Positions 14,150 to 57,980 of a stretch of DNA of 64,000 bases are shown one piece after another; the first letter of the stretch is position 1, and every line of letters starts with the position of its first letter. Source of the stretch: Isoetes taiwanensis (Eukaryota; Streptophyta; Lycopodiopsida; Isoetales; Isoetaceae); the NCBI GenBank assembly GCA_021234155.1, contig JAJEKV010000003.1, forward strand, positions 32,781,166 through 32,845,165, read 5' to 3'. The notes beneath the pieces are model-generated. The model had not been told where the DNA came from, did not search any database, and saw only the letters and a list, made by a program, of their open reading frames with translations. A program made the translations under genes and the position numbers.

Positions 14150-14300
14150 CGGACTGAAAATGGGACTCACACACCATAAAAGAAATTTCTGAATTGATTG
14201 CTTGAATAGAATTACACATGACACACATAGAATTGGGTTACTTGTTTTCCTCATAAATTTTACAAACCACTAGTTGAGAAAGTTTTCAAACTTCTCAATA

Positions 14301-17211: not shown

Positions 17212-17224
17212 CTGAATGAAAAAG

Positions 17225-17475
17225 CTCACATTAAAACCATATAGCCCCAAACACCACAAATATGACCATATGAACCATATAAAACCATACAAACATATTA
17301 AATATAACCATATTAAATCATACAACCATATTAACTAAAATCATATAACCATATTAAAGCATACAACCACACTCATTCTAAACCATATGTGAACATTGTA
17401 ACCATATATACCATTGATACTATTCAACCATTGAAACCTTATTAAATACATAAGACAACATATATAAACATATAA
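17225..17475. repeat. ACCATAT-rich spacer between divergent genes of element A
   Basis: Irregular short repeats such as ACCATATTAA and AACCATATAA fill the spacer upstream of the minus-strand gene. The same composition occurs in element B at 57905-57980 and 61240-61320. Confidence 0.7.
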
Positions 17476-31269: not shown

Positions 31270-31436
31270 TCTTCTTAGGCGACCTGTAACGTTCCTAACC
31301 GACATGCCCTTAACCAACTGGGCAAAACAGTCTAGACGTTTATGAGTAGTCGCTTCTACCCATTTATGCCGGTATCTCGGAAACGCCCCATAGGCACATT
31401 CAAGGTTCGAATACTCGAGCGGTCTACCATGGGCCC

Positions 31437-34400
31437 TGTGACGAGCCTGCCGAGTTGACCCTCTAGGCAACTCGGGATCTTGTCAATACTACGCTAATTC
31501 TAGGTTGGTATGACAAACAATTGAATATGGTGAAGAATTGAATCTTCCTCTTGCACAGCTAAATTGCACACTCAAAACTCAATGAGCAAATACTTGATAT
31601 CTCAATATAATCAAATAACATTAACATCCAAAGAATCCATATTCTCAATGGTTACAGCATCCATGTTAGCAACTCAATCCTAGGAGCCGCCTTGCCCATC
31701 CATGAGCCACAACAAAGATGGTGCCATCGCCTTGCTCTTTCACCGCATGCACTGCACTTTGGGGTTAGTCCTCGTGACTAAGTGGGGATCCCCGGGCTGC
31801 CTCTGCATGCATGGAAATACTACGGAATCTTGGATAGCAAACATAACAATTCAAAGACACAAGAACCTATGGTGCAACGCTAGACTATGACAATAAAGAA
31901 AACATCATGAACATCAAGAGCAAAGAACATAACCAGAGTATCAAACCATCATAAACAAACTCCGGGACAATGGGTAGCCCAGCCAGCCTACATACAGCCC
32001 CCCGTTAGCAAAGCATGTTGCCCAACCCGACTTACATTCCAAGCCCCTGGCGGTGGTGGGGTGAACCTCGATAAGATACCCCTCTCAGCCCCCTTCCGGC
32101 AACCGAGGACCTCTTACCATGGGGTTTCACAAGAGTTGATCGACGAGCAATCCCCTGCCGGAGAACTAACGCCCGGTGTCCGCGAGCACAAGAACCACAG
32201 AGAATCACAGATGAACATGAGCATGCCGAAGCAACCTAGGCCACCGAACCTAGAAGCCCGACCCCGGAGGTTCCAATAGACATAATCAAATACCAAGACA
32301 ACAGTAGAGCAATGCAAAGACCATGACATGTGAAGTTCATTACAATATTTATTAAACATGTGCCTAGATCATACTCTTAGCCCTTGTCGAGGTTGCCCAT
32401 ACAACCTAACCATGCCGAAGTAGCTAACTCATTGGTGAAGATCATGATCACAATACAAACATGTGGAGGAAGTTACTGAGCCCCGACCGTCATGGATGTA
32501 GCTTCAATACCTATATACATTACTGATCAAGGAAAGATACTAACATCTTCTATAATGCAAAACTTACCTCGAAGCCATCTGTTTATACTTTGAATCCATT
32601 AGCTATGATGCTCTTGATAAAATACAATGCAACAACTTGAAAACTTACAGTTACGCACTCAGACTAGATGTACTTCATGCTATAGTCACATTCAGAAACC
32701 CCCAAGCTTCACATGGCTCTCCTTGTACCAATGTGGACCCGTCTCAATCTCAATAATCCTTGATGTCAGATGACCGCTTATTCCTATTTCAAGATCCACA
32801 TGCGAACTTGATTTGAAATCCTTGATGCCGAGGGGTCGTTGACGCTCTACATCTGTGCTAGACTACTTCTCAGCATTAGCCCCATCTCCATGAGCTAAGA
32901 AAGATACTTTATCCCAAACCTTAGAATTTTACCATAGTTAGACAATTATCAAACAATGCATATTCTTACTATTATGATTATTCGCTTTCGACTCTTCATG
33001 TCTCGATCTCCTCTGCTAAGCTCGAATGCAACCCAATTCCATCTATGAGGACTCAGCTTCATACTAGGACATGCAAATAAATTGAGAAAGGCAGCAAATA
33101 CAAGACCAACAAAATAAAGCACAAAACCAAAATGACAAAAACATAACATGAACACAAAATGGCGTTGGAGAGCTCTCGGTCGACCACTGATCCAATCTAA
33201 TTCGCCTTTTTTAAAGTTTCCATGCTGAATCGGTGCTCTTCATGTAATATTCAGCCATTCTTGACTTAAAATCAGCCTTACTGGGGATGTTTCCAATCAT
33301 TGATTTTCTTCTCTAGCCTTATGAGTCTCCAACAAATTCATAATCTATAATATTTGCATGCAAAAATCATGTGCAGACTAATCATGGCAGCTCATAGCAC
33401 ACCTCAATTGATCAAAAGCAAAACCCCACCTGATAATTTCTTTCCACATAGACCTCTGGACCCCTTGTAATTGATTGCGCCTCCAAAGATCGTCTTCTAG
33501 CTCCAAGAAGCAAACCGGAAGAAGAATAGGCATAGTGCAGTCAATTCTGACTCAGCATCACTATTTCTGTCATAACTTTTGCATACGGATGAGTTTTGGC
33601 TTGATCAGACCCATTCCGGAAAGCTTACTTAAGGACCTTTCCAACAAAAGAAAAATCATTTGAAAAGGATCTCAGGTTGCCGAGATATGATGCTTCAAAT
33701 TTCGGGCTCCAAAACTGCCCAGAATTGCTCCCTACCTTCATGCTCTGCAACAATCCTTTCTCCAAAGAGATAAAACCCTAATATCATGCTGCATATATGC
33801 CATTAATATGTATATACATATATAAATAGGTATATTGACCCATTAGGTGGCCAGGACCGTTACAGTCTCCCCTTCTAAAAATTAACCCATGTCCTCATGG
33901 GTCGTGATAGATTTACTGAAGCATTTCTTGATTCAAATCTCAGATCAAGCATAGCTCAACTCAACTCAAAACTTCAGCTCATGTAGCAACTTACTCTACC
34001 ACGATCATATTCCAATCTTACCAGCACCATCTTACAATTGCTATCATCTTACTGAACATGCCACAAGAAAGACCTTACCTTCAACATCGTCAAAATTTGC
34101 TTGCCTTGGCATCTTCAACCACCTCTAGATATTGCTTATCCCTCTAAGGATACCATCTCTTGATGTCTCTGAAAGAAAGATCATTAGCATCACAATGCCA
34201 CAACCAAACGAGCCAACTCCCAAAGATCCAACATTGCTCTGATACCAACTGTGACGAGCCTGCCGAGTTGACCCTCTAGGCAACTCGGGATCTTGTCAAT
34301 ACTACGCTAATTCTAGGTTGGTATGACAAACAATTGAATATGGTGAAGAATTGAATCTTCCTCTTGCACAGCTAAATTGCACACTCAAAACTCAATGAGC

Positions 34401-36676
34401 AAATACTTGATATCTCAATATAATCAAATAACATTAACATCCAAAGAATCCATATTCTCAATGGTTACAGCATCCATGTTAGCAACTCAATCCTAGGAGC
34501 GTCTTGCCCATCCATGAGCCACAACCTTTGGTGCCATCGCCTTGCTCTTTTCTTTGCACATGCACTCTTTGGGGTTAGTCCTCGTGACTAAGTGGGGATC
34601 CCTGGCTGCCTCTGCATGCATGGAAATACTCTGGAATCTTGGATAGCAAACATAACAATTCAAAGACACAAGAACCTATGGTGCAACGCTAGACTATGAC
34701 AATAAAGAAAACATCATGAACATCAAGAGCAAAGAACATAACCAGAGTATCAAACCATCATAAACAAACTCCGGGACAATGGGTAGCCCAGCCAGACCTA
34801 CATACTGAGCCCTGTTAGCGAAGATGTTGCCCACCCACCTTACATTCCAAGCCCCGTAGCGGTGGTGGGGTGAACTGTATCGCAAGATACCCTCTCAGCC
34901 CACCACGGCTTTGGAGGACCTCTTACCATGGGGTTTCACAAGAGTTGACCGACGTAGCAATCCCTGCCAGGAGAACTAACGCCCGGTGTCACAGAGCACA
35001 AGAACCACAGAGAATCACAGATGAACATGAGCATGCCGAAGCAACCTAGGCCACCGAACCTAGAAGCCCGACCCCGGAGGTTCCAATAGACATAATCAAA
35101 TACCAAGACAACGGTAGAGAGCAATGCAAAAGACCATGACATGTGAAGTTCATTACAATATTTATTAAACATGTGCCTAGATCATACTCTTAGCCCTTGT
35201 CGAGGTTGCCCATACAACCTAACCATGCAAGTAGCTAACTCATTGGTGAAGATCATGATCACAATACAAACATGTGGAGGAAGTTACGAGCCTGACTGTC
35301 ATGGATGTAGCTTCAATACCTATATACATTACTGATCAAGGAAAGATACTAACATCTTCTATAATGCAAAACTTACCTCGAAGCCATCCGCTTTTTATAC
35401 TTTGAATCCATTAGCTATGATGCTCTTGATAAAATACAATGCAACAACTTGAAAACTTACATTCACGACTTTTCGGACTAGATGTACTTCATGCTATAGT
35501 CACATTGAAACCCCCAAGCTTCACATGGCTCTCCTTGTACCAATGTGGACCCGTCTCAATCTCAATAATCCTTGATGTCGATGACCGCTTATTCCTATTT
35601 CAAGATCCACATGCTAACTTGCCTTTGAAATCCTTGATGCCGAGGGGTCGTTGACGCTCTACATCTGTGCTAGACTACTTCTCAGCATTAGCCCCATCTC
35701 CATGAGCTAAGAAAGATACTTTATCCCAAACCTTAGAATTTTACCATAGTTAGACAATTATCAAACAATGCATATTCTTACTATTATGATTATTTCCTTT
35801 CGACTCTTCATGCTCGATCTCCTCACGCTAAGCTCGAATGCAACCCAATTCCATCTATGAGGACTCAGCTTCATACTAGGACATGCAAATAAATTGAGAA
35901 AGGCAGCAAATACAAGACCAACAAAATAAAGCACAAAACCAAAATGACAAAAACATAACATGAACACAAAATGGCGTTGGAGAGCTCGGTGTCCGGATCC
36001 AATCTAATTCTCTTTTTTTTTTTAAAGTTTCCATGCTGAATCGGTGCTCTTCATGTAATATTCAGCCATTCTTGACTTAAAATCAGCCTTACAGGGATGT
36101 TTCCAATCATTGATTTTCTTCTCTAGCCTTATGAGTCTCCAACAAATTCATAATCTATAATATTTGCATGCAAAAATCATGTGCAGACTAATCATGGCAG
36201 CTCATAGCACACCTCAATTGATCAAAAGCAAAACCCCACCTGATAATTTCTTTCCACATAGACCTCTGGACCCCTTGTAATTGATTGCGCCTCCAAAGAT
36301 CGTCTTCTAGCTCCAAGAAGCAAAGCTGCGAGGAAGAATAGGCATAGTGCAGTCAATTCTGACTCAGCATCACTATTTCTGTCATAACTTTTGCATACGG
36401 ATGAGTTTTGGCTTGATCAGACCCATTCCGGAAAGCTTACTTAAGGACCTTTCCAACAAAAGAAAAATCATCTGAAAAGGATCTCAGGTTGCCGAGATAT
36501 GATGCTTCAACTTTCGGGCTCCAAAACTGCCCAGAATTGCTCCCTACCTTCATGCTCTGCAACAATCCTTTCTCCAAAGAGATAAAACCCTAATATCATG
36601 CTGCATATATGCCATTAATATGTATATACATATATAAATAGGTATATTGACCCATTAGGTGGCCAGGACCGTTACA
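31437..36676 (-). mobile_element. LTR element with giant LTRs and a minimal interior
   Basis: The two direct repeats are 31437-33864 (2428 bp) and 34260-36676 (2417 bp), with ends that read TGTAACGGTCC...CTCGTCACA on the minus strand. The interior is only 395 bp. On the minus strand it starts GT then TGGTATCAGAGC (34257-34246), the initiator-Met tRNA primer site, and ends with the polypurine tract AGAAGGGGAGAC (33865 side). There is no coding capacity. The class is inferred as Ty3/gypsy from the TGTAACG start and the primer site. No target duplication was found, and 31275-31436 on the left is unexplained. It must be mobilised in trans, if at all. Confidence 0.85.
34246..34257 (-). promoter_or_regulatory. 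Primer-binding site of the giant-LTR element
   Basis: The minus strand reads TGGTATCAGAGC two bases after the LTR end, an exact complement to the 3' end of plant initiator-Met tRNA. Confidence 0.9.
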
Positions 36677-38413: not shown

Positions 38414-38418
38414 ATCAT

Positions 38419-40092
38419 TGTGACGTTCCAGCACAGTATACGCCCCAGGACGTATACCGTACTGCCTCGTCACGCGTACACGCCACTCCAGCTGACGTGT
38501 ACGCTAGCGTGTAGCCAGGTGGGTAGCCCTAGGGGGCAACTTGCCAGAAATATGTGCAACCATTAATGTGCACATTTTCCAATCTACACATTAATGTGGG
38601 CACACATTTCCAAGTGGACACTTCATGCCAAGTGGGCCACACCCATAGGTGCAATTAATGTGCACATTTTCCAATGTACACATTAATGTGGGCACACATT
38701 TCCATGTGTGCACATTTGGCCACCTAGCCCTTAAAGGCAAGTGGGCCCATTCCCAATTATCCCACATGCCAAAAGGGGATAATTGGAAACCCTAGCCAAC
38801 CCCCTTGTCTATATAGGGTAGGAAACCCTAACTAGCCCAATTTTCGATTTTAGGGCTTTAGAACTCTGTTTTGGCTGCCTCAACAAATTAAAACCGCATC
38901 CCGAACTTCTGCACGGGAGAATTGCATCCTTAGTTCCTCTAGATTCGAGGCGTTTGCCAGGATGGTCGAGCTCAGTCGAGGAGGAGCCCCTCAAGGATCA
39001 GGTATTTGGCCAATTAGATAGTCTAAACCCTATTTTAGTCATTGAATCAGTAGGTTTAGCCTATTAGATTGCCCATAGCAGCCCTTTAGATCTCTAGATA
39101 GCAGATTCTAACTAAAGAATCTAACTCTATGTTGTAGATTAGATCTTATTCTTTAGTTCTTCTGTGATGTATATGGATGATGTATCTCTATGAACTCCTT
39201 GTATTGGGAAGGGGGTAGAGACCTAAAAGCTTTGTAGTTGATGCTCCTAGAGTAGCCTCTCTAGCACACCTTGTAGATTCGGGCACGTGCACAAGAGCCA
39301 CAGGGATGTGGGTGAAGGGGCGGACTGGGCCGAGAAGGAGATTCATGTCGACTCATGAACGGTTCCTCCGGTGTGTAAGGCCCACGGGAACCATTGTGGC
39401 TAGGTCCAATGGCTTGCCAGCTGCGTGCGGGGCAAGGCATGGGCTCGACACCCGTGGTGGGGTGGTGTTCACCTTCCGGTGGGGGTTCGAATACACGGGC
39501 AAAGTGGCCCTCTAGCCACCTTGAGTCAGCATGTAGATCTCTGGAGGAGTGATCCCTACCGCCCCATCGGGCTGGGAAGATGAGCCCAGGAGTAGCCCTC
39601 TTGGCTATGCATCCGGCGGGCTACAGTCGGGTCCCGACACTTTTCAGACCACTCTGCAAAGTGTGCACAGGAGGGGCGGATGGAGTGGACAACCCTAAGC
39701 CATGCTCATATGCCAGCCAAATCCATTGCCATGAATTGCATGCGCAATGAACTGAACGGAGACCCAAGCCGTCAGTCATCCCTTGAGTCTGAGCCTTGGG
39801 TAGGATTCCCTATGTGATGTGCTGATCTTTGTCTATGCAGATATGTGGAGGACCATCCTTCGTGATGGTCATATGATGTTGATGTATGTGCTACTGACAT
39901 GTATGTTTACGCTTCCGCAGCTAGGTAGGCCCTGAGGGAGACGGGGTGCAATGACCCTTCCACTCTTCCCACTGGAACCCGTCACGGTTGCAGTGTCATG
40001 TGGAGGGCCCTGTATTAGCATGGAGCTGGTATGGGGGATGAACTCCTGTTTGTATACGGTGAGTGCACCGTATACGAGTAGGGGACGTCACA
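38419..40092 (+). repeat. 5' LTR of the histone-carrying element
   Basis: 1674 bp. Compared with 49764-51436, long stretches are identical, for example AATTAGATAGTCTAAACCC and its surroundings. Short clusters of indels in GC-rich places separate them. A TATA-like TATATAGGG lies at about 38810. Confidence 0.9.
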
Positions 40093-40093
40093 G

Positions 40094-40105
40094 TGGTATC
40101 AGAGC
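40094..40105 (+). promoter_or_regulatory. Primer-binding site
   Basis: TGGTATCAGAGC, complementary to initiator-Met tRNA, lies one base after the 5' LTR end. Confidence 0.92.
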
Positions 40106-40296
40106 TATGTTCTTGGAGACCAAGAGCAAAGCACTGGCCATGTTCCCAGTAGCACTAACTTGATAGGATCCTCAAACCTCGAAAAATGAGAAAATTTTTT
40201 CTCATTTTTGTAGTTTATGCTAAGCTAGTAACAGTTAAAATGAATAAAAACGTAAAAAGACTAAAATTGATGAGCCAACATCCAAAAAGTAGGGTG

Positions 40297-40550
40297 GTCT
40301 CACACGTCGCGCCAGGACAGATTTCTACATTCTAGAAATCGGGCTGGGCGCAACGTGTGAGACATTCAGCTTTGACACCAAAAAGTTGTAAATTACAGTA
40401 AAATACCTTGATAATTCTAAATTTAAGCTAAGAATTAGTAGATTTAGCATGTTACATGTTAATTTAATAGTGGGCCCCACCATGTCTCACACGTCGCGCC
40501 AGGACAGGTTTCTAGATTCTAGGAATCGGGTCGGGAAACAACGGTGAGAC
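40297..40550. promoter_or_regulatory. Paired 67-bp palindromes upstream of the H3-like gene
   Basis: The two copies are 40297-40363 and 40484-40550. Each has outer arms GTCTCACACGT and a near-complement ending GTGAGAC, an inner GCGCC/GGCGC pair in the first copy, and a core ATTTCTA...TAGAAAT around CATTC. They are 187 bp apart. The second copy has substitutions in the core arms that keep partial pairing (TTTCTAGATTCTAGGAA). The same pair arrangement occurs before the second gene. Confidence 0.8.
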
Positions 40551-40625
40551 CTTGCTTAATTAGGTGTTTTTAGGTGCTCTAGACAACCCAAAAAGGTAGT
40601 TTAAAAGTTGACCTAAAATTGGCCC

Positions 40626-40633
40626 TATAAATA
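40626..40633 (+). promoter_or_regulatory. TATA box of the H3-like gene
   Basis: TATAAATA lies 76 bp after the second palindrome and about 107 bp before the first ATG. The intervening leader contains GGCGATCTTCTGGC, a phrase nearly repeated in the leader of the second gene. Confidence 0.65.
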
Positions 40634-40735
40634 GAACCAGACCCCTCCCATTTTTTCCTGTTCTTCCCTAGAACTTCGCTCGTGCTGTCAAGGCGATCTT
40701 CTGGCGCTTAGCTCCGATCGACAAACCGTAAGATG

Positions 40736-42030
40736 ATGGCCGCCACGAAGCGGCACCAAAGGAAGCCTAGCGAAGCGGATCCTCCAGCGCCCGGCCCTCA
40801 GGCCTCTTTCACAGATTCTTCGGGGAACGCCTTCTCCACGGGCGATGAATCTTAGGTCAAGTGAGGGAAGCGTGGTCGGACCGAGCGACCACACGAAATC
40901 TTGGAGGACGACCCGGCCGAGGACGTCATGAACGAGATACTCAATTTAAATTGCACGGCAGAGGCGTGAAACCGGGCAGCTAGAGCAACACTGTGGGACG
41001 CCAACCCACGAGGAGGAGCAGAGGGAACAAAGGACCCATCAACAGCCCAAGAACAACCCTGTGCAGAGATCCACCTGGCAGGGAGGAGCAGTGGAAGAGA
41101 AGAGCAAAGCAACACGGAATCCTCACCCTAAGAAGAGGCAGACTCGCGACGCCTGGGCCCACAAATACGGCCAAGCAGCGCCACGAGCAGAGGGACAAAG
41201 AGCCTGAAGACGACCCACTACAGCCAGCGGACCCAAGAAGAGGAGGGCCAAAGCCAGAAGGCGTGCAAGAGGAAGCTGGTAAAGGTTGGGAAGCGGCCAA
41301 GGGCCTGCCATCAATGAGCCATCTGAGGGGAGACCCCCACCACCACCGACGACACTGATGGAGACTACGCGGTCGGTGCGACGGGCAAGCTCTTCAAAGC
41401 CCCGGCCAGAGGAAGAGGTCCCAGAGCAGACGGCCCAAGAACAGGAGGAGGCCGGCAGTTGGCGAAGCCCCCACCATTTCCGACGTGGGATAGGGTCAAG
41501 ACCCCACGGCCGCAACGGGAGGCATATGTGATAGACCCCCTAAAGGTCTATCAGAAGAGGATCAGGGAGCACAACGCGTATATGGCAAAGTGGGAGGCCT
41601 ACAATGCCTATTACCGTGAGCAGGGTGAGAACGATTGAAGGCGGACACCGACGAAGAGCCGTGGCCAAGCCCCCCCACCAAAGCCCAAGCCTCCCCCGAG
41701 CACCGGGGAAGAAGCGGAACAAGAAGAAGAAGGCGGAAGGCGGGGCACTCAAGGAGATCCGCCACTTCCAGAAGAGTTACGGACTCCTGATTCCCCGGGC
41801 GCCGTTCCAGCGCTTGGTCCGCGAAGTCATCCAAGAATACAACACAGACATGCGCGTGACCGATGAGATGCTGTTGTGTTTACAAGAGGCGGCCGAAGCG
41901 CATATAGTTAAGCATTTTGAAGATTCAACGGCCTGCACGGTGCACGCGAAGAGGGTTACCCTCATGAGGCGGGGATATGTATCTTGCCGGATACATCAAG
42001 GGAGAACGCCCTTGAACCTTGTAAATAACT
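40736..42030 (+). pseudogene. Histone H3-like gene inside an LTR element
   Basis: ATG 40736 begins MAATKRHQRKPSEADPP. In-frame stops and frame changes interrupt a long charged region (for example [37 protein letters not shown] at about 41540-41600). From 41604 one frame holds a Lys-rich tail ([13 protein letters not shown]) and then a histone H3 fold: [17 protein letters not shown] (alpha-N), [18 protein letters not shown] (alpha-1), [19 protein letters not shown] (alpha-2) and [12 protein letters not shown]. The last helix ([13 protein letters not shown] then a stop, the counterpart of DIQLARRIRGERA) is in the next frame after a GGGG run at about 41972. EIRHFQK, LLIP and RVTLMR recall plant CENH3, but loop 1 is not lengthened and PFQRLVRE is canonical. 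The tail lacks the ARTKQTARKS start. The H3 assignment is firm; its role is unknown. Confidence 0.8.
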
Positions 42031-42157
42031 GAAAAATTTTGTTAATATAAAGAAAATTTTGTGTAAATAAAGTGTCAAACCCTGTTTAAATAGGTCAAGA
42101 TATCGATCCCTAGCCTTCGTTTTAATTAAATTGGAGTTTGAGCAAAATTGAGACGAT

Positions 42158-42424
42158 GTCTCACACGTCCGCGCCGGAATGATTTCTACATTTTAGAAAT
42201 CGGGCCGGGCATAACGATGTGAGACCATGCCCAAAAAATGCCCAAAACAGCTCCAAATCGACCAAGTAAGGGGTCAATTGCGCCTAACTTCGATGAGTTT
42301 AGTGGAATTACAGCCTTAGATCACCTAAATTGAGTAATCCTAGCCCAATTGGGACCTATGTCTCATACGTCGCGCCAGGACAGATTTCTACATTTTAGAA
42401 ATCCAAGCGGGCAACGTGAGAGAC
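42158..42424. promoter_or_regulatory. Paired palindromes upstream of the second gene
   Basis: Copies at 42158-42225 and 42360-42424, of the same family as those at 40297 and 40484 (GTCTCA(C/T)ACGTC...GATTTCTACATTTTAGAAAT...GAGAC). They are about 202 bp apart. Confidence 0.8.
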
Positions 42425-42603
42425 CCCCGCACTCATTTCATCACCAAATGATCTCCCAAATTGCACAATAGGTTCAAGTAGCTCTCCTTAGCATGCTCAA
42501 ACCCTAGAAATATCGTCAAACTTGCAATTGCATCACTTAATAGGTTAGAATTGCCTAATCTCAAGAAATTCTAAGTCATCCAAAAATTAGGTTTTCCCCT
42601 TTC

Positions 42604-42611
42604 TATAAATA
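42604..42611 (+). promoter_or_regulatory. TATA box of the second gene
   Basis: TATAAATA lies 180 bp after the second palindrome and 114 bp before ATG 42725. The leader has GGCGATCTTTCGGC, close to the phrase in the H3-like leader. Confidence 0.6.
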
Positions 42612-42724
42612 AGTCCCCATTTCTCAATTGGCACCCCGCAAATTTGCTCCCCAATCGCTTAGGGCGATCTTTCGGCTCCCGAGGGCTTAAGCATCCGTTT
42701 GATACTCCCTTCTTTGCTAGATCA

Positions 42725-43700
42725 ATGGCTACTACTGATTTTGGGCGATGGGTGCGCGCCCGATTGCTATCTCTTTTGAGGCGGATGTCAACGACATCTT
42801 CCAAGTCTTTTTGTGAAAGAAATCGACATCCAAGCTACGCTAAATGCAACCCCCACTTATAGGCGGTGCTAGCAGAATTTCGTGCTAGGGTAGGACCCTC
42901 CCTTGTTCAAGTTCCCCTTGCATAGGATACTTTGTTTCCCGCCCATCCCTTCAAAGCGCCTTTGGGCGATGTCCCCAACATCGCCAAGTACTTGACTAAC
43001 AAAGGCGCAGAGACTACTTGACTACATGGTCGGCGATAGCGGGACCAAGTACTTCTCTTACACCGCCCTAGCCATCTTCTTATCCCAAGCGCCCGAGAGG
43101 GGCAGATGGGGGCAACCTCTATCCCTCCGATGGAGGTAGACCCCATAGCAGAGCAAGAGGAAGAGCAGATGCTGTTGCAGTATCAACAGGAACAGGAAGC
43201 AAGAGAGGATGAAGAGGAGTCGGACGACGAAGGATACACGGAGCTCGACTCAGACGAAGAACGGCGCCAAGGAGAGCAGGAGCTGATCAATTTCGAGCAG
43301 AGCCAGCAGGGCATCAGAGTTGCTCCCCCACTCGGGCTAGGCATCACAAGCCTAGCCCCTATCATCATCGACGGATACATGGATGCATGGCTAATCTCCC
43401 GGCGTAGGAAGAGGGTGAATCTTCCATTATGGCCGCGGAGACAGCGCCTACATGCCTATATGCCGCTCATGCCTACACCTCTAGTTGCCCAGCGTGGAGG
43501 ATATCCTTCTCGCGTGGGGGGCGCGAAGGATAGATTCCTCCTATCAAAGCATATATGGGGCTAAAGGTGCTTTCCCTATCAATGCATTCCTTCATGACCT
43601 CCTTTCTCTCGAGGTCGTCTACTTCTGTGGGACAGAAGTAGACTTTCTAATCTACCTTCCACTCGCCCAAGCGGAAACGCGGTCATGCCTACATTGACAT
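42725..43700 (+). pseudogene. Second plus-strand gene of the H3 element, unknown acidic protein
   Basis: ATG 42725 reads MATTDFGRWVRARLLS. The best continuation changes frame several times: ISFEADVNDIFQVF, GDVPNIAKYLTNKGAE (about 42966-43010), DYMVGDSGTKYFSYTALAIF (about 43022-43080). It then stays in one frame from 43106 to 43564 with MGATSIPPMEVDPIAEQEEE and a strongly acidic stretch (REDEEESDDEGYTELDSDEE), followed by PPLGLGITSLAPIIIDGYMD. I recognise no domain. The matching promoter layout suggests it is expressed together with the H3-like gene. Confidence 0.45.
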
Positions 43701-43797
43701 TACACCACGCCCTAGAGATCACCGTAGTGGTCCCATCATCGGTAACAACGCATGCGACCCATACTAAGCGTAGGTGGCATGCGTAGATTAATCTTAA

Positions 43798-44751
43798 CTA
43801 CACAAGAATTAACCTACACAAATCGACATGCGAGGCGATTTCCACCGGAGATGACCTTGCCGTCCCATTGCTCCATAAAGCTGTGGATCTTTGCTTTACT
43901 AAATCTTTCTTAAGTACCCACGTCGCGTCTTCCACTGGTAAGTGTTTCCACTTGACCAAATACTGGAGGAATTCTGATCTCCTCGTTTTCTTGAAAGCTT
44001 TATCAAGAATCAATTCTGGAACTATTTCCAGCTGTTCCTCCGTCATTTCCAACAACGTTGGCGAATCCAAGACTTCGTCTGGATTTGGAGTATGCTTCTT
44101 CAACAAACTCACGTGGAAGACCTTATGAATCTTTAGGTGTGCTGGCAAATCTAGCTTGTAGGATTGATTACCTACTCTCTTGACTATTCTGAAAGGTCCA
44201 GCCCACCTTGGAGCAAGCTTCTTGCAATTCCGATCCCGAAGCCGCTGCTTCACCTTGATCTTGAGCCAAACATCATCTCCAACTTTGAACTCTCTTACTG
44301 TTCGATGCTTGTCGGCGATGCTCTTCTGACGACTTCTTGCTGCTAGCAGATAACCTCGAACTTCTTCCACAAGCTGCTGCATATCGGCCAACATCTGCTG
44401 CGAAACTTCCACTTTTGACACGGGGTTGTGCCAAGTGTCTGGAGTTAGGCAATCGATAGCGTAATTGATCATAAACGGCGACATTTGGGATGATTCCTGC
44501 TTGGTGCTATTGTATGCAAACTCCACCAAGTGAATAAATTCTTCCCACATACTTTGCTTATTCCAGACATAGTTTCGTAGCATGTCCTCTAAAATCCTGT
44601 TGGTCCGCTCCGTCTGGCCATCCGTTTGAGGATGGTAAGCCGTGCTCATGGATAGCTTCGTCTGGATCGTCGCAAAGAGGTCTTGCCAAAAGGCGCTCAT
44701 GAACTTCGGATCCCTGTCGGAGATGATCTCCCTTGGCATGCCATGAAGCAC
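43798..44751 (-). CDS. Integrase C-terminal half and chromodomain
   Basis: The longest unbroken part of the antisense gag-pol, 317 residues. It begins in the integrase core (MPREIISDRDPKFMSAFWQD, with the second catalytic Asp). It continues through HPQTDGQTERTNR (catalytic Glu), the GPF/Y-type stretch KLAPRWAGPFRIVKRVGNQS, and a chromodomain at about residues 245-290 (LILDKAFKKTRRSEFLQYLV, then WKHLPVEDATW) that in chromoviruses directs integration to heterochromatin. The end (SNGTARSSPVEIAS...) looks like read-through into non-coding sequence. Confidence 0.85.
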   Translation of the reverse strand: MLHGMPREIISDRDPKFMSAFWQDLFATIQTKLSMSTAYHPQTDGQTERTNRILEDMLRNYVWNKQSMWEEFIHLVEFAYNSTKQESSQMSPFMINYAIDCLTPDTWHNPVSKVEVSQQMLADMQQLVEEVRGYLLAARSRQKSIADKHRTVREFKVGDDVWLKIKVKQRLRDRNCKKLAPRWAGPFRIVKRVGNQSYKLDLPAHLKIHKVFHVSLLKKHTPNPDEVLDSPTLLEMTEEQLEIVPELILDKAFKKTRRSEFLQYLVKWKHLPVEDATWVLKKDLVKQRSTALWSNGTARSSPVEIASHVDLCRLILV

Positions 44752-47700
44752 GAAGATCTCTTTGGTGAAGAGCTTTCTTTGTATCCATGGTCAGTATCGT
44801 GGTTACGCAAGGCACAAAATGTGCCATCTTCGACAACTTGTCGACTACTACCATCAAGGCATCCTTGCCTCTCGCTGTTCTTGGGAGTCCTGTGATAAAA
44901 TCCATGCTGATTACCTCCCACTTAGCGTTTGGCACCGCTAATGGCTCTAATGCCCCTGGAATTCGAAGCTGCTCCGCCTTCGTCTGCTGGCATAGCTGAC
45001 ATTCCTTGATGTAGCGAGCTATTTGCTTCTTCATTCTGGCCAATAATAGGCTGCTGCCAAGACTTTGAAATATGTTTTCATGAATCCCGCATGGCCAGCT
45101 ATTGGGCTGTTGTGCGTGTCATGGAGGATCAACTTCCTTACACCGATGATTCGGTGCACGCACAACTTGTTCTTATGGTATAACAGGTTGCCTTCCTTCT
45201 TATAATGCTTGAAGGCCTCCCGCTCTTTATCTGTTCTAGCCTCCTTCGAAAGGCTTGCCCATACTTCCCTGAAATCCACATCCGTTGGCAAGGACTCTTC
45301 AATCCTCTTACCAAAGTCATTTGGAGCGTCGAAATTGCATTGCAATGCACTCTAGTTGTCGAGGGGGATGCCTTGAAAGCGCATCTGCTACCACATTGAG
45401 CTTCCCCGGCTTGTAGACTATATCAAAGTCATATTCTTCGAGGAACTCCATCCATCTCCGCTGCCTCAGATTAAGGTGTGGTTGCGTGAATACATATTGG
45501 AGGCTCGATGGTCGGTATCAATTGGAACTTCCTTCCCAAGAGATAATGCCTCCATATTCTTAATGCCCCGACAACCGCAAAGCAACTCCACGATCGTCGG
45601 CGTTGGGTAGCAGCGTCTCGGCGTCGTTCATCTTCCCGGAATCATACGCTACCACACGCTCTTCTTGCATAAGCACCTTTGTAGTAGCTATCTTACTCGC
45701 ATCTGTTGCTACAAGCTTGTCTTTCTCGGGTCCGCGAGGGGTTAAGGCGGGGGCTGTTGTTAAAGCTTCCTTCAACAATTCAAACCCCTTTTGGGCTTTC
45801 TTGTGCCAATGCTCTACCCAATCTTTCACCTTCTACGCCCTCGTCAGTGCATTAGGGGGCTGCTATCTTAGCAAAGTTCTTCACGAACTTCTGTAGTACC
45901 ACTGCTAGGCGAGGAAACTTCTGATTTCATGCACATTCTTGGTGACCCTTTGAATGAATGGCTTCAATCTTGGCGGGGTCTGTTGAGATGCCTTCGCTGA
46001 GATCACATGGCCTAGATACTCCACCTTTTCTGTTGCGAAGTGGCACTTCGACAACTTGGCGTACAACTGGTGCCTCTTCAACTTCTCTAGCACTCTTCTC
46101 AAGTGTTGTACGTGCTCTTCAAGGGATCTGCTATACACCAAAATGTCGTCAAAGAAAACAATCACAAAGGTGTCCAGGAACTCCCTGAAGATATCGTTCA
46201 TGAGCCTCATGAACGTTCTTTGGGGCATTTGATAAGCGAAAGGCATTACCGTGAACTCATAATGCCCATACCGCGGCTCGAAGGCGGTCTTATGGATATC
46301 TTCTTCCTTTATCCTGATCTGATGATAACCTGACCTTAAGTCGATTTTGGAGAAGATCTTTGCACCTTGGAGCTGATCCATCAAGTCGTCTGATCTTGGA
46401 AGCGCATACTTGTTCTTGATGGTGTGCTTATTCAACTGTCTATAGTCTATGCACATCCTCAAAGATCCATCCTTCTTCTTGACAAAAAGAATGGGCGCCC
46501 AAGCGGGCGAGACACTAGGTCTAATGAAACCTAGGTCGAAAGCAGCTCCTGAAGCTGCTTCTTCGACTCACGACAACTCCTGCGTTGTCATTCTATATGG
46601 AGCCTTGCTTGTTGGCTTTGTTCACGGTTCGAAGTGCTATCTACTTTTCGACTCCCCTATAAGGAGGGAGCTGCTTGATCTCATCTGGAAAGAGATCATG
46701 GAACTCCGTGATCAGCTTAGCTACTTGCTTCGGCAACTTGCTGAGCACCTTGTCTTCCTTGCTTCCTTCCGATTCCGGCTCACTAATCTCAAGCTTGAAG
46801 ATGTATGCCACTTGCTCACTCTTGATGCACTTGAACAGCCGTTTAGAAGACATACTGCTTTGCATGATGGGAACAACTTCCTTACTGTTATCTCAATGAT
46901 CTTCTTGCCCGGGCGTTGGGAAGGTCACCTTCCGCTTCCCACCGGTCGATAATGGCCCCCTGGCCCAAGGTACTCCATTCCTATGATCAAGTCATACTTT
47001 CCAATGCCCATTACTTCTGCCCCCATCTGGATATTAATCCCTGGCAAGTCGATGTCGAAGTTAATTCTCTTGCCCGCCGTCTGCCTTACTGCACCACTTG
47101 CTAAAACAACGGGTCTTGGCTTTGACTTTAGCGGCTTCAACTTCAACATTTGAACCATTTTGGGGGATGCAAAGTTATGGCTACTTCCTGAGTCTATCAA
47201 GACTATGAAGGACTTAGCTTTAGCCCTCCCCTCTTGTGGAAATTACCCTATCTTGGCTCTCTGCTTGCTCAGTATCTATTGCGGCAAAGATGTGACACTC
47301 ACCCCGGATGTAGTCGCGGGCCTCTTCGCCCGTCGTCGTCCCGACAGAGGCGCCCCAATCTCCCAACTCCGCTAGAGCTGCACTCATGGCGTAGGGACGG
47401 TTCTTCGTTCTATGGCCCGGCTGGAAGCACTGAAGCACCATTTGCTTTTCTATGCACTCCTCGCCTCTTTTCCTTGGGCATCGCTTGCAAAAGGATTACC
47501 TTTGCTTTGGAGTAGTTTGACCTCTCCCGCTTGTCCTTGAAGGACACTGCTTCTTCTCCCCGCTTTGCTTCCCTGGTTCCCACCATATGGGGCTCTAGCC
47601 TGGACTGGGTAGGCTGCCACGGGGCTATAGCTTCTCGTCGCCTTGCCTTTATCACAGAATCTGCTGCTTGTGCCGCTATTACGAGGTCGACCCCCTGCAA

Positions 47701-48650
47701 GCTTATAGCCTTGGATTCCGCCCGATCTTGTCCTAGGGTTTATTGCCCTCACAAGCTTCGCGGATCTCCTCATTCAGCCCCTCAATATAGCTTTTCTCTT
47801 GCATGCTTCTCTCCCAACCCGGCACATACTGACCTTAGCCTCATGAATTCCTCAGTATATTTCTGAACTGATTTGTTGCCTTCGCGAACCTTGCAAAAAC
47901 TGCCGCATCATCTTTGGACTTATGTTCCCTTGGGCGTAATGGCGCTTTTGAAGGCTTTTAGCAAACTTTTCACGAACTTACAAGCATCCGCTTGCAAGCC
48001 GTGTGCCTTTGCATAACCCTTCCACCAAATCCGGCGGCTCCTTTCAAGTTGGCTGTTGCAACTCGCCTTTGTCCTTATCCTTCATGCCATAAGCATTTCC
48101 GTATTAAGCTCATTTAGATCCGCCATGCCTCTGCTTCCAATCGACTGTTCTCCCCGAAACTGTTCTAGTTTCCGCCGTCCATACATGCCCGGTACGGAAT
48201 CTACCTTCTTCCGGTAGTCGAGGCCCCGTATCTCTTTGTCGTCCCTCGGGGTGTTCCCCGCCTTCCATCGTTAGTTCTCAGGCACATTTCTTCCTCTTCC
48301 TCGAGTCGGTCCGAGCGGCGAACTTGAGTCGGAAGATTCGGTTGGGGATCTCCTTCTCTTGCTCCTCTTCTTGTCCCTTCCTTCCCTCCGAGCTGATGCT
48401 TGCGGCAACTGAGCATTGCCCACCGAACCCACTCCTGCTTGCGCGGACAGTAATGCCTTTATCTGCTCCAGGTCTGTCCTCATCTGGGCTATCTCCTCCT
48501 CTGGGGTCATGGGTTCCCTATCTTCAAATAGGTTTCTTGCCGGGGGTGGTCTGGGCGGGGTTTGTTCTTCTATAAGGTCTCGCAGTTGTCGTTCCCCTGC
48601 GTTTAGGCCTCTGGCTGCATACACAAGCAATTCATGGCTATATGATTAGT
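43798..48650 (-). mobile_element. Antisense chromovirus (Ty3/gypsy) gag-pol without its own LTRs
   Basis: Minus-strand order: gag ORF 48630-48271 (LRDLIEEQTPPRPPP; basic KKRSKRRRSP end); degenerate knuckle CFQPGHRTKNRP (about 47430); protease IDSGSSHNF (about 47195); reverse transcriptase [20 protein letters not shown] to [16 protein letters not shown] (46456-46110); RNase H (45829-45560, KLVATDASK); integrase zinc finger (HDTHNSPIAGHAG...CQLCQQTK), core MDFITGLP, ISDRDPKFMSAFW and HPQTDGQTERTNR (44900-44590); chromodomain FLQYLVKWKHLPVEDATWV (about 43900). At least six frame changes. It faces opposite to the enclosing LTR pair. I found no flanking repeats of its own, so this is an internal-region insertion or its LTRs are too decayed to see. 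Confidence 0.8.
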
Positions 48651-48794
48651 TCCATTTGTTCTTCTTGCATTGTTTATGTTTGTTGGTATAATTGTGAGCA
48701 AACTACATCAACAAAACATTTAAGTGCAGCAGAATTGTATTTATATATCGTATAATATTTTAAATACAAAAAGTCTCCGGGATCAAGAGTCTAA

Positions 48795-49356
48795 CTAGTC
48801 TTGAAATCGCCGGTAAGACGGGTTGTCTTCAAGAAACTTCTTAACTTGGGCCGTCCCTACCGAGTGACCCAAGTTCCTGATGATGCTTGCTGACGAGCCT
48901 CCCTGGATGGCTCTCACCAGGTCTTCTACCCTGCGGTCGGATGTAAGGGCCGCAGTCACTGCTAATCTCGCCTGACGTCGGTGGGGGATGGCGAAGTCGA
49001 AGAGGTCGAGTGCCATTGACCTCTTGACTAAGACAGCATAGTCGACATTTGTTGCTATTCGAGCATGCCTGCCGAAGCCTGAGAGTGCAATCAGCATAAA
49101 CACTCCTTCTTCGCCTCTGGGACTGAACTTGCGGTGAATTACCGCTATTCTCCCATCCATCAGCAGCGGCAAGTAGTATCTGAGCGACCTGTCGTTGTGT
49201 GTCGCCGAAGCTTCTCCGCTTGTTTGGCCTCCAGCTCTGTGCCGCCCGGCGTACTCGTCGACCTCAACTTCAGTGAGCTCCCTGTAGTCTTCAATTGTGC
49301 GGTCGAGCCTCCTGAGGTCGATTCCTTCTCCTTTGGGTGGTCACCATATAACCAAA
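48795..49356 (-). CDS. Unknown GC-rich ORF inside the H3 element
   Basis: The minus strand is open without a break for about 186 codons from 49356 to 48795. It reads KGEGIDLRRLDRTIEDYREL, SATHNDRSLRYYLPLLMDGR, AVIHRKFSPRGEEGVFMLIA, ATNVDYAVLVKRSMALDLFD and FLEDNPSYRRFQD before the stop. The first Met is internal (49172), so the start may be a splice acceptor upstream. Composition and length suggest real coding DNA. It lies upstream of the antisense gag, in the same orientation. I do not recognise it. Confidence 0.5.
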
Positions 49357-49763
49357 AATTTTATTTAATAATTAAATGGTACTAACGTAGTGTCGACCTG
49401 CAGGCCAGTAGAGCGCTCCGGAGGGCAAGGAGGTCGGGCTACGAAGACTTGCAACACAAATTTTGTTGGAATGTGTTGCAAGGAATGAAGAGTGCCTCGG
49501 ACGTTAATTTTAAATTTTGATAAACTTAATTATAATGTTAAGTGAATTTTGGAGTAATCTGTTTAGTAATGTTGTGAATCGATAAGTTATTTCATAATAT
49601 AATGATGTGATAATGTCATAAAAATATTACCTTGAGGTAATTTTAATAAATGTGTAGGAATTAGAGTAGTAATCGTATGTATCAGGTTGATTGCAGGTTA
49701 CGATGATCCCAAGGTGGGGAGACCCACGATGCTGCGGACAGCATCATTTCAAGGTGGGGCGAA

Positions 49764-51436
49764 TGTGGCGTTCCAAAGCCGCGATATCGCCCGGGGCGTA
49801 TACCGTCGCCTGCCTCGCAGCGTACACGCCACTCCCGGTGACGTTAATGCGCTTAGCGTGTAGCCAGGTGGGTAGCCCTAGGGGGCAACTTGCCAGAAAT
49901 ATGTGCAACCATTAATGTGCACATTTTCCAATCTACACATTAATGTGGGCACACATTTCCAAGTGGACACTTCATGCCAAGTGGGCCACACCCATAGGTG
50001 CAATTAATGTGCACATTTTCCAATGTACACATTAATGTGGGCACACATTTCCATGTGTGCACATTTGGCCACCTAGCCCTTAAAGGCAAGTGGGCCCATT
50101 CCCAATTATCCCACATGCCAAAAGGGGATAATTGGAAACCCTAGCCAACCCCTTGTCTATATAGGGTAGGAAACCCTAACTAGCCCAATTTTCGATTTTA
50201 GGGCTTTAGAACTCTGTTTTTGGGCTGCCTCAAGCACCAAAACCGCATCTCGTGACTACTGCTGGGAGAATTGCATCCTTAGTTCCTCTAGATTCGGCGT
50301 TTTCAGGGATGGTCGAGCTCAGTCGGGAGGAGCCCCTCAAGGATCGGTATTTGGCCAATTAGATAGTCTAAACCCTATTTTAGTCATTGAATCAAGAGGT
50401 TTAGCCTATTAGATTGCCCATAGCAGCCCTTTAGATCTCTAGATATGTGATTCTAACTAAAGAATCTAACTCTATGTTGTAGATTAGATCTTATTCTTTA
50501 GTTCTTACGTGATGTATATGGATGATGTATCTCTATGAACTCCTTGTATTGGGAAGGGGGTAGAGACCTAAAGCTTTGTAGTTGATGCTCCTAGAGTAGC
50601 CTCTCTAGCACACCTTGTAGATTCGCCTCAGGCACAAGAGCCACTTAGGGATGTGGGTGAAGGGGCCGGACCGGGCCGAGAAGGAGATTCATGTCCCGAC
50701 TCATGAACGGTTTCCTCGGTGTGTAAGGCCTACCAAGGGGAACCATTGTGGCTAGGTCCAATGGCTTGCCACCGCGTCATGGGCAAGGCATGGGCTCGAC
50801 ACCCGTGGGGGTGGTGTTCACCTTCCGGTGGGTTCGGTCGAATCACGGGCGGTGGCCCTCTAGCCACCTTGAGTCGGCATGTAGATCTCTGGAGGGAGTG
50901 ATCCCTACCGCCCCATCGGGCGGGAAGATGAGCCCGTGAGTAGCCCTCTTGGCTATGCATCCGTGCTGGCTACGGTCAGTCCCGACACTTTTCGCACCAC
51001 TCGCAAAGTGTGCATGAGGGGCGGATGGAGTGGACAACCCTAAGCCATGCTCATATGCCGCCAAATCCATTGCCATGAATTCCATGCGCAATGAACTCAC
51101 GGAGACCAAGCCGTCGGGTCATCCCTTGAGTCCGAGCCTTGGGTAGGATTCCCTATGTGATGTCTTTGATCTTTGTCTATGCAGATATGTGGAGGACCAT
51201 CCTTCGTGATGGTCATATGATGTTGATGTATGTGCTACTGACATGTATGTTTACGCTTCCGCAGCTAGGTAGGCCCTGAGGGAGACGGGGTGCAATGACC
51301 CTTCCACTCTTCCCACTGGAACCCGTCACGGTTGCAGTGTCATGTGGAGGGCCCTGTATTAGCATGGAGCTGGTATGGGGGATGAACTCCTGTTTGTATA
51401 CGGTGAGTGCACCGTATACGAGTAGGGGACGTCACA
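49764..51436 (+). repeat. 3' LTR of the histone-carrying element
   Basis: 1673 bp, starting TGTGGCGTTCC after AAGGTGGGGCGAA and ending GGGGACGTCACA, followed by the ATCAT duplication. Confidence 0.9.
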
Positions 51437-51441
51437 ATCAT

Positions 51442-51960
<519 letters not shown>

Positions 51961-56122: not shown

Positions 56123-56329
56123 CAAAAGTCACATTTAATTAAAATGGGTCAGATTTTGACGTTTGGGTCTCATGCTGAAAATGGAACTTATATTAAAAGA
56201 AAAAAAAATGAATTGAATGCTTGAATAGAATTACACATCATACACCAAGAACTGGGTAACTTGTTTTCCTCATAAATTTTACAAACCACGAGTTGAAAAA
56301 GTTTTCAAGCTTCTCAATATTATCTACCC

Positions 56330-57892
56330 TCATACGGTGCTATAGCATGGAGGTTGCTCATGGCTTTGTCCATCTCCCTTTTGGGGATCTTGTGGGTCTT
56401 GTCCTTTGAAATGTGACAAGTTGGATATGACCATACAACACACTCCATCAATTCCCTCCTTATCAGCATGATTTGCCCTCCACTTCTTCTCCCAACAGTC
56501 GGTGTATTGCTCCTTCAAGTTGCCCTTCTTATGCCTTCCAATGGGCTCCCAATATTGAATTTGGAATCCAGGATGCAACTTCTCTCCATCAGACATGGTG
56601 GTGGTAACATCAGAGAGTGCCACCCCTAACCATATTGGACAATCGTCATCGTCAGGCCTTACTAGCACAAAGTGTCCTTCCTTAATGTCCTCAAAAGGAT
56701 CCCACTCAGGAAGATCAAACCACTTCGACTTTGAGGCCTTGCTTCCCACAAACCACTTGGAGCCATTGTTAGTGACCCAAGTCAACTTTCTTGGATGTGC
56801 TTGCTCCATGAGAACCCTCCCATCTAGACTCTGGTAAGAACCCGTCTCTCAGCTTCCCCCCTCCCCCCAACCATCATGGATGTTCTGTTCCTAAGCATGT
56901 CACAGCTTTCTCCCAATAATTGATTAGGGAGGGGGTGGAGGTGTGTTTTCCATCACAAATATCCTCCCAGTGCGTTATATAATCCTTGATGCCCTTCACT
57001 AGTTGGCTAGAGTCTTTAACTGTCTTAAAGGGAGGAAGTGGTTTTGGCTGCCCTCTAGGAATAAGAACTTCACTTGTAGCCCCCCTTTGCCACAACTCGA
57101 TTCCTTGTATAGGCATCCACAACTTATCACCTGGTCTCCACTTATATTGCATGATCGATATTCCATCCCTGACCCAAAACTTGAACTGAAGTGGCTTTCC
57201 TTGTCTTGTCAACTGATCCTTACCATCTAACAAGTATCCCTCGACAAATAATTTCCAATCTGCAACCTCATCCTTCGAGAAAGTATACTGGACCTTATTT
57301 CTACAAGGTCAACCACACTATACTGGATTGTGCAATCTAGAGTGCAACACTCTTGTCCCCTAATTGCTTCTAGGTTTTCTTTAGTTGGTGCCATACTTTC
57401 CATCCTTTGTAAATATTTGTCACTTCTAGCCCTTTTGGGCATCTTTGGCTGCCTTTCATGAAACATGTAGCACCTCTTCCTCGTGGTCAAAGGATGCTCA
57501 TCCACCACCAAACCTTCCACATTGCCTGGGCTGGGCCTTGGGGTGGGCCTTCTAGGTTCTCATCATTCTTGTGTGTAATATGTCTAATTGGCCATCTTAA
57601 CTAAGTTTGAGACTCGAGCAACCCAGAGCAGACAATGCAGTCACTGGAGCTCCCCTGGAACATGATTGTATCAACTTGAATAAGAAGCTTCCCAATGCCA
57701 ATACCAAGATGATCATCTCCCAGCCTTTGATCATTCACACTATCAGATGGATCCACTGGAGTTATGATGCCCTTCTGTAAAGACCGTCCGCTGCACGGGT
57801 GCAACAATAAGCAATCCATCTTTCTCCATTGGAGCCTAGGACAATGTCCCGTGTTTGGCTTGCTTGGCTCCATTCTGCTTATCTCATGCTCC
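56330..57892 (-). pseudogene. Internally deleted DUF7869 gene, element B
   Basis: The exon begins after TTTCATTTAG (57892) with EPSKPNTGHCPRLQWRKMDC. It matches A up to DLVEIRSSI (about 57285) and then jumps straight to the segment equivalent to A's DEVADWKSFVEGYLLDGKDQ (57270 downwards). The roughly 1.36 kb encoding KMDQHK, LDNCWKENKN and GHTHDDID is gone. The C-terminal reader-like domain (WDPFEDIKEGHFVLVRPDDD) is kept, ending at 56330. The copy therefore cannot encode the catalytic protein. Confidence 0.8.
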
Positions 57893-57980
57893 CTAAATGA
57901 AAGAAGACACATTATAACCATATAACCATGAATACTACAAAACAATTAACAATAAAATATAACCATATGACCATAAATAT

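Follow-up and report, generated by a model that had tools for sequence, protein, structure and literature searches.

A conserved histone H3-like gene in a family of Ty3/gypsy retrotransposons of Isoetes taiwanensis

A family of LTR retrotransposons in the genome of Isoetes taiwanensis carries, between the 5' LTR and gag, a gene for a long-tailed histone H3-like protein, ORF1. Judged from its sequence, ORF1 is a conserved gene of the element, as indicated by its position, its copy number, its long frames, the purifying selection acting on it and the H3 residues that it retains. We consider it somewhat probable that the product of this selected gene acts as a nucleosome-anchored chromatin protein, by a mechanism that would include tethering. 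The analysis followed up the window, that is, the whole stretch of 64,000 nucleotides examined here (contig JAJEKV010000003.1, positions 32,781,166 to 32,845,165 of the forward strand), in which a first-pass annotation made from the letters alone had reported an H3 fold inside an LTR element.

The annotation had delimited this element by an LTR pair, a 5-bp duplication, a primer site and a purine tract. All of these were found, all on the plus strand, and they bound an element at 38419-51436 (Table 1), the LTRs of which are 94.5% identical to each other (K80 0.057) and the primer site of which, TGGTATCAGAGC, we take to be of the initiator-tRNA-Met type. Within the element, PF00078, PF00385 and PF24626 scored above cut-off and PF17921 below its own; the element is a rearranged copy of a Ty3/gypsy chromovirus, with a chromodomain in its integrase. 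Inspected by eye, this chromodomain has the W of WKH and lacks the other two cage aromatics, presumably as in chromodomains of plant group II; a simple reading of methyl-lysine by the element chromodomain is thereby weakened. A microsatellite, seen as a frame of repeated YLSI units (51708-51905), lies directly outside the element.

Table 1. Features of the retrotransposon in the window (window positions; a dot marks a feature without strand).
Feature	Position	Strand	Basis
Target-site duplication ATCAT, left	38414..38418	.	letters read; identical 5 bp at 51437-51441
5' LTR, TG...CA, 1674 bp	38419..40092	+	direct repeat of 49764-51436
Primer binding site TGGTATCAGAGC	40094..40105	+	letters read; motif also after 5' LTR of L011 and L023
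Four related near-perfect hairpins	40297-40363, 40484-40550, 42158-42225, 42360-42424	+	repeat family D4
TATAAATA box, 107 bp before ORF1 ATG	40626..40633	+	conserved in type D loci
ORF1, long-tailed histone H3-like gene, broken over several frames	40733..42015	+	DNA matches of type D sisters
Decayed H3-type N-terminus MMAATKRHQRK	40733..40765	+	L042 and L046 read MMARTKQTARK
Open frame with H3 fold, alpha-N to loop 2	41544..42032	+	PF00125; H3.3 in PDB
TATAAATA box, 121 bp before ORF2 ATG	42604..42611	+	conserved in type D loci
ORF2 5' part (MATTDFG...), with stops and frameshifts, to inversion breakpoint	42725..43375	+	tblastn with L034 ORF2, E=4.9e-62
Inverted block: ORF2 3' part, gag, pol	43376..49337	-	comparison with sisters
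Integrase C-part, SH3-like domain and chromodomain	43801..44790	-	PF24626 6e-23, PF00385 1.1e-8
Reverse transcriptase	45908..46567	-	PF00078 E=2.4e-34
ORF2 3' part	48798..49337	-	L017 ORF2 344-422, E=8e-7; L050 frame
Polypurine tract AAGGTGGGGCGAA	49751..49763	+	letters read
3' LTR	49764..51436	+	direct repeat of 5' LTR
Target-site duplication ATCAT, right	51437..51441	.	letters read

The presence of an H3 fold on the plus strand, downstream of the 5' LTR, was borne out by profile comparison: the open frame matches PF00125 with E=1.9e-23 (83.5 bits; cut-off 26.4), a value that rules out a chance match to the histone profile, and the solved structure of H3.3 in the PDB with E=9.2e-25. The terminal helix does lie one frame over, as had been read, and ends at a stop at 42013-42015; in most sisters of the same type (type D, defined below) it is in frame with the fold, unlike in the window copy. 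The long N-terminal extension that the annotation described is real, since the length of the window ORF1 is close to that of complete ORF1 frames in other loci (428 aa in L046, 411-459 aa in ten other copies), in which H3 is at the C-terminal end. DNA matches of the type D sisters (L030-L048) cover all or most of the window ORF1 at 77-90% identity. Stops and frameshifts interrupt the window ORF1 upstream of the H3 fold. The suggestion that a captured host gene is decaying here holds for the window copy alone, which is both decayed and rearranged; the gene is not nearly identical to host H3.

The rearrangement concerns gag-pol, which runs antisense to the LTRs, on the minus strand of the window copy. 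In 18 of 18 type D sisters the plus-strand matches end at window positions 43367-43375, one LTR match excepted, and most of these 18 loci extend about 120-220 bp past that point. In L046 and the adjoining L050, ORF1, ORF2, gag and the start of pol all lie on one strand, and positions 191-3016 of L050 (reverse complement) correspond to window 49337->46517 with 91% identity over this ORF2-gag-pol part. Because the sister matches stop at the breakpoint, and because L046/L050 is colinear and matches the minus strand, we conclude that the block was inverted. A separate nested element is ruled out as the source of gag-pol, since the L046/L050 sister carries the same gag-pol in sense.

To count relatives of the gene, the assembly (1,658,258,908 bases in 1110 contigs) was searched with three queries. 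With the histone profile, the best 150 of 8705 candidates were scored and the top 15 taken to be host H3, seven of them having been read as such; among the 135 non-host rows, 36 are open over at least 400 aa and 5 have an inner stop. With the window H3, the best 150 of 9502 candidates all have E<1e-53 and are 66-82% identical to the query, the window itself excepted; 47 of these 150 are open over at least 400 aa, and most contain a single TGA, which is the natural gene end in the sisters read. With P0016, a protein considered further below, the best 140 of 9119 candidates were scored, of which 125 are non-host H3 by eye. Together (135 + 150 + 125, minus 5 seen twice by hand comparison) these searches give at least 405 loci of these H3 types, which were typed by sequence and include some short fragments; their LTR context is known from ten fetched copies and, in part, from the type D sisters. 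Other copies of the element with an open H3-like frame, the first thing to look for according to the annotation, therefore exist, many with long frames.

The ten copies were picked for long open frames and fetched with 20 kb around each. LTRs lie on both sides in seven of them (none flanks both sides in L015, L019 and L021), and gag-pol frames of at least 250 aa follow ORF1 in sense in eight, none being readable in the other two. Target duplications are GCCAC in L009, AAAGT in L023, imperfect in L011 and six bases long in L027; in L013, L017 and L025 the flanks are cut by the end of the fetched stretch. The primer site of the window recurs in L011 and L023 and, in an altered form, in L013; LTR divergence ranges from K80 0.035 to 0.108. 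Six of the 18 type D sisters compared extend back into the LTR end. The position of ORF1 is thus fixed in the copies examined: in sense, between the 5' LTR and gag.

We distinguished four types of ORF1: five of the ten fetched copies are type A, four type B and one type C, and the window copy is type D. In types A-C, a domain of about 200 residues, 31-35% identical between types, forms the shared N-terminus; a coiled-coil-like linker joins it to the H3 core, which is 83-88% identical to host H3; type A matches the histone profile with E=2.7e-42. No relative of this N-terminal domain was found in Pfam, PDB or Foldseek, and no similarity to it was detected in the N-terminal part of type D. AlphaFold models are weak for the domain (pLDDT 66) and for ORF2. 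Identity of the type D core to host H3 is 55-57% where a sister retains the natural end, and 42-51% in the cores with frameshifted ends (window, L037 and L044; window 49%). In all four types the alignment shows C110, H113, R116, D123 and L126 kept, which we number as H3-H3' and C-terminal contacts; the window copy and the frameshifted type D rows have lost the last of them. Type D also lacks some DNA contacts by alignment (R63 -> P, K79 -> N), which counts against a nucleosomal reading. Type B carries H87 and L90, presumably H3.3 marks in plants. Basic stretches of nuclear type are visible by eye in ORF1. Host H3 itself (L001, L004) has A31, Y41, S/T87 and L90, residues that, we assume, differ from the H3.1 pattern of flowering plants.

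We then computed dN/dS across copies, as the annotation had proposed, which revealed purifying selection on the H3 domain, with values of 0.00-0.13 in 16 within-type pairs. The N-terminal part gave 0.05-0.25 within types (two pairs having saturated dS) and the linker 0.11-0.25, apart from the closest pair, in which a value of 0.94 shows no constraint. In type D, 76 codons of the core gave pN/pS 0.042 at pS 0.32 (153 pairs of 18 loci, the frameshifted L044 left out), and a stretch of 67 residues before the fold gave 0.085 in 12 loci. The gag-pol control yielded dN/dS of 0.05-0.11 in five pairs and 0.38 in the closest pair; by these estimates, the H3 domain is as constrained as gag-pol. Open-frame rates and dN/dS are both biased towards intact copies, the best candidates only having been scored and long frames chosen, and since the searches and the choice of copies favour intact frames, dN/dS describes the lineages that stayed open and not all copies. 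The proposal that an LTR element possesses a histone of its own is thereby supported for the family, by the number of loci, the fixed place where examined, the long frames and the low dN/dS of the H3 domain. What we found is neither a single copy nearly identical to host H3 or CENH3 nor a sequence without a fold match, and a single recent capture of host H3 is ruled out by the many loci and the low identity to host H3.

Type D begins like a true H3. The full-length protein of L046 starts with MMARTKQTARKPSRSG, and L042 is identical there; L034 starts with MMARTKRIARKPSRSG and L037 with MARTKQTATKP. ARTKQTARK is intact in no more than two of the 18 type D sisters read (L042 and L046); the window and the sisters not named here are more decayed, and L046 alone among the 18 has its start in frame with the fold. 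The 18 had been selected as near relatives of a copy that is itself decayed. Searching the genome with a codon pattern that spells MARTKQTARK and then proline gave 419 places (reversed control, 0), and 1,422 when up to two mismatches were allowed, a number that should include the host H3 genes. The first 30 matches are 18 DNA versions of one peptide, which are the only changes that the pattern permits. With 100 of the 419 tails listed, the contigs that these cover contain 33 type D cores; for 18 of the 33, an exact tail lies 0.8-1.4 kb upstream in the same orientation, and no listed tail was on the wrong side or strand of any of these cores. The canonical H3 tail is limited in type D to the first nine residues and is absent from types A-C; by eye, the type D tail keeps K4 and K9, has P10 and shows no recognisable residue-27 region.

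A second gene, ORF2 (465 aa in L017), has frames of at least 250 aa in six of the ten fetched copies and no relative found in Pfam or PDB. In a genome search with ORF2 (best 95 of 7174 candidates scored), 50 of the 95 places were compared with 80 H3 places: an H3 core is listed upstream of ORF2 in 24 of the 50, at a distance of 251-285 bp in 23 and 759 bp in one, and no other arrangement of the two genes within 3 kb was seen among these places. In type D, each gene is preceded by a TATAAATA box, at -101 to -111 of ORF1 in 7/7 loci with a recognised ATG and at -119 to -124 of ORF2 in 13/13, the window being included in both counts, and we read these boxes as TATA boxes conserved in type D. No TATA box was found close to ORF1 in the ten A-C copies; L019 has a TATA-like match at -237. 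The four hairpins of the window (-39.9, -27.0, -33.9 and -24.2 kcal/mol, in order) form one pair before ORF1 and one before ORF2, and their end motifs were found in 20/20 type D loci fetched. The LTR-ORF1 spacer, scanned in four A-C copies, contains hairpins too, but different ones, and an Rfam search of window 40000-43800 gave no match. Because a box and a pair of hairpins precede each gene, the arrangement suggests that ORF1 and ORF2 may be expressed from separate messages, to be compared with maize Grande gene23, which has its own promoter according to the part of the article available (PMC7264820).

Comparison between elements showed that ORF1 types do not follow the rest of the element. 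Among types A-C, 15 of 17 gag-pol comparisons give 85-98% identity, and the two that involve the L025 gag stretch give 75-76%. The LTRs of L023 (type B) and L009 (type A) share 92% identity, to be set against same-type LTR pairs at 85% (L009/L025, A), 80% (L013/L023, B) and 95% (L009/L011, A). Since gag-pol is nearly the same despite divergent N-terminal domains, and since LTR kinship crosses ORF1 types, ORF1 cassettes appear to have been exchanged between elements. Type D gag-pol is 50-54% identical to that of A-C over gag to early pol, with window pol reaching up to 78% by segment.

From these features we propose that ORF1 would enter the nucleus and pair with host H4 through its H3 fold, that host chaperones would place it in nucleosomes, and that this entry would anchor its N-terminal arm to chromatin. 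In types A-C the arm would consist of the novel domain and the coiled coil; in type D it would be about 300 residues long and carry an authentic H3 tail. Once anchored, the arm would most likely act with ORF2 and the chromodomain of the integrase to tether or guide integration; the main alternative use would be to relieve silencing of a new copy. That the element chromodomain could read the type D tail is a guess. A plant retrotransposon lineage with its own nucleosomal H3, several N-terminal modules and swapped cassettes, in which the type D tail with its P10 writes an integrase address or escapes silencing, is a reading that we hold only tentatively.

Some of the same features would fit a protein that protects rather than guides. 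Element H3 in nucleosomes over new copies, lacking modifiable residues, would act as a decoy that blocks heterochromatin marks or phosphorylation switches: types A-C are without ARKS sites, type D has lost the residue-27 region to the eye, and fold and tetramer surface are retained while the tail is replaced (A-C) or altered (D). The retention of K4 and K9 followed by P10, at the 419 places of a pattern that itself requires the proline, also suits a decoy; the exact H3 start of type D, however, suggests that tail readers matter, a point that fits targeting equally well, and we regard the decoy as rather unlikely. The basic stretches and the location of the gene upstream of gag would agree with a role in particles, the H3-like protein condensing element DNA or RNA instead of host chromatin, and viruses encoding histones exist. 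The frames scanned contain only an H3-like fold and no H4, H2A or H2B partner, though, and the retained H3-H3' and C-terminal surfaces point to host H4, which makes packaging quite improbable.

Descent of type D from CENH3, by which the element would be directed to centromeres, is decidedly unlikely. In a tree of the cores, type A is followed by B with C and then by an H3 family from ENA contigs near host H3, and type D stands beside CENH3 with a bootstrap of 95; this tree includes only two CENH3 sequences and keeps three type D rows with frameshifted ends. Both branches are long, and the grouping may be long-branch attraction. The annotation had noted a resemblance to plant CENH3, and it remains ambiguous: both have a divergent H3 fold and a variable tail, and IRHFQK, LLIP and RVTLM are common to them, but type D has a loop 1 of H3 length, without the longer CENH3-type insertion, and the H3-like C-end ARHIKGERP in place of LGGxxRPW, and its core is as close to H3 (~56%) as to CENH3 (~55%). 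A captured host H3 carried as a passenger without function would account for the broken window copy and for the 17 of 18 type D sisters without start and fold in one frame, and gene fragments are common in LTR elements. Yet constraint equal to that of pol, hundreds of loci, several old types, a fixed position and low identity to the host leave this account with very little probability, and we retain the nucleosome-anchored protein as the favoured reading.

Core-histone folds in mobile genomes are familiar from viruses, such as the H4 of bracoviruses and the histone doublets of Marseilleviridae. Those carriers are DNA viruses, whereas here the carrier is a retrotransposon, and its one H3 is joined to a long N-terminus that is new. 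With chromoviruses the element has in common reverse transcriptase, integrase, chromodomain and a connection to chromatin; a histone gene is not known to us from any chromovirus. For few families of LTR elements is it known how they find chromatin or escape silencing, and in most of these a reader, such as a chromodomain, is involved; an element that supplied a part of the nucleosome itself would follow a different strategy. One protein would make the question testable, through its entry into nucleosomes, its location and the consequence. It would also offer natural, selected H3 variants with radically altered tails, in a histone evolving under selection for a parasite.

Additional ORFs in plant LTR elements are described for maize Grande gene23, Retand and rice RIRE2 (PMC7264820, PMC11963269). 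In the available parts of these articles, the elements have, as here, extra conserved genes beside gag-pol in many copies, but those ORFs are antisense, between pol and the 3' LTR, whereas the two ORFs here are in sense, between the 5' LTR and gag; theirs encode TRP28, a few others (one Mis12, some Smc) or unknown proteins, and one of ours a histone. A gypsy lineage of orchids (PMC9289625, available in part) likewise captured and kept a host-type domain: an ORF of its Ty3/gypsy elements encodes an m6A demethylase, an RNA-modifying enzyme instead of a chromatin component. A thin check of the literature found no retrotransposon-encoded core histone and does not establish its absence from print: as far as the available text goes, the word histone is absent from the main text of PMC7264820, PMC11963269, PMC13317346 and the Isoetes taiwanensis genome paper (PMC8566536), and occurs twice in PMC9289625, neither time for an ORF.

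A protein search with the window H3 gave 254 matches, of which the best 120 (P0001-P0120) were listed. All but two of these (P0045, a Quercus CENH3, and P0099) have IRHFQ and CLQEA in common and form another long-tailed H3 family, mostly on single ENA contigs, the longest members of which have about 250-280 aa and a different conserved tail, LGHRVLDWTPEQKKKIHEARMQGR; this family may be a parallel case. Its tail was not found in this genome among the best 140 of 9119 candidates, and on these candidates we reject its residence here: P0016 was matched by the H3 part only, and the one longer match, L049, reads as type C and has another tail. Viral contigs searched held no relative, and in prokaryote genomes eight contigs labelled bacterial match the H3 part only and were taken as eukaryotic contamination. 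In a search with full-length ORF1, gene models seemingly holding several H3s dominate the best 120 of 4456 matches. Elsewhere in the window lie a 2.4 kb duplication (31436-33864 / 34249-36676, 95.5% identical) and two dispersed repeats, 14154-15265 / 56175-57283 (84%) and 16594-17260 / 57290-57941 (83%), which possibly belong to another element.
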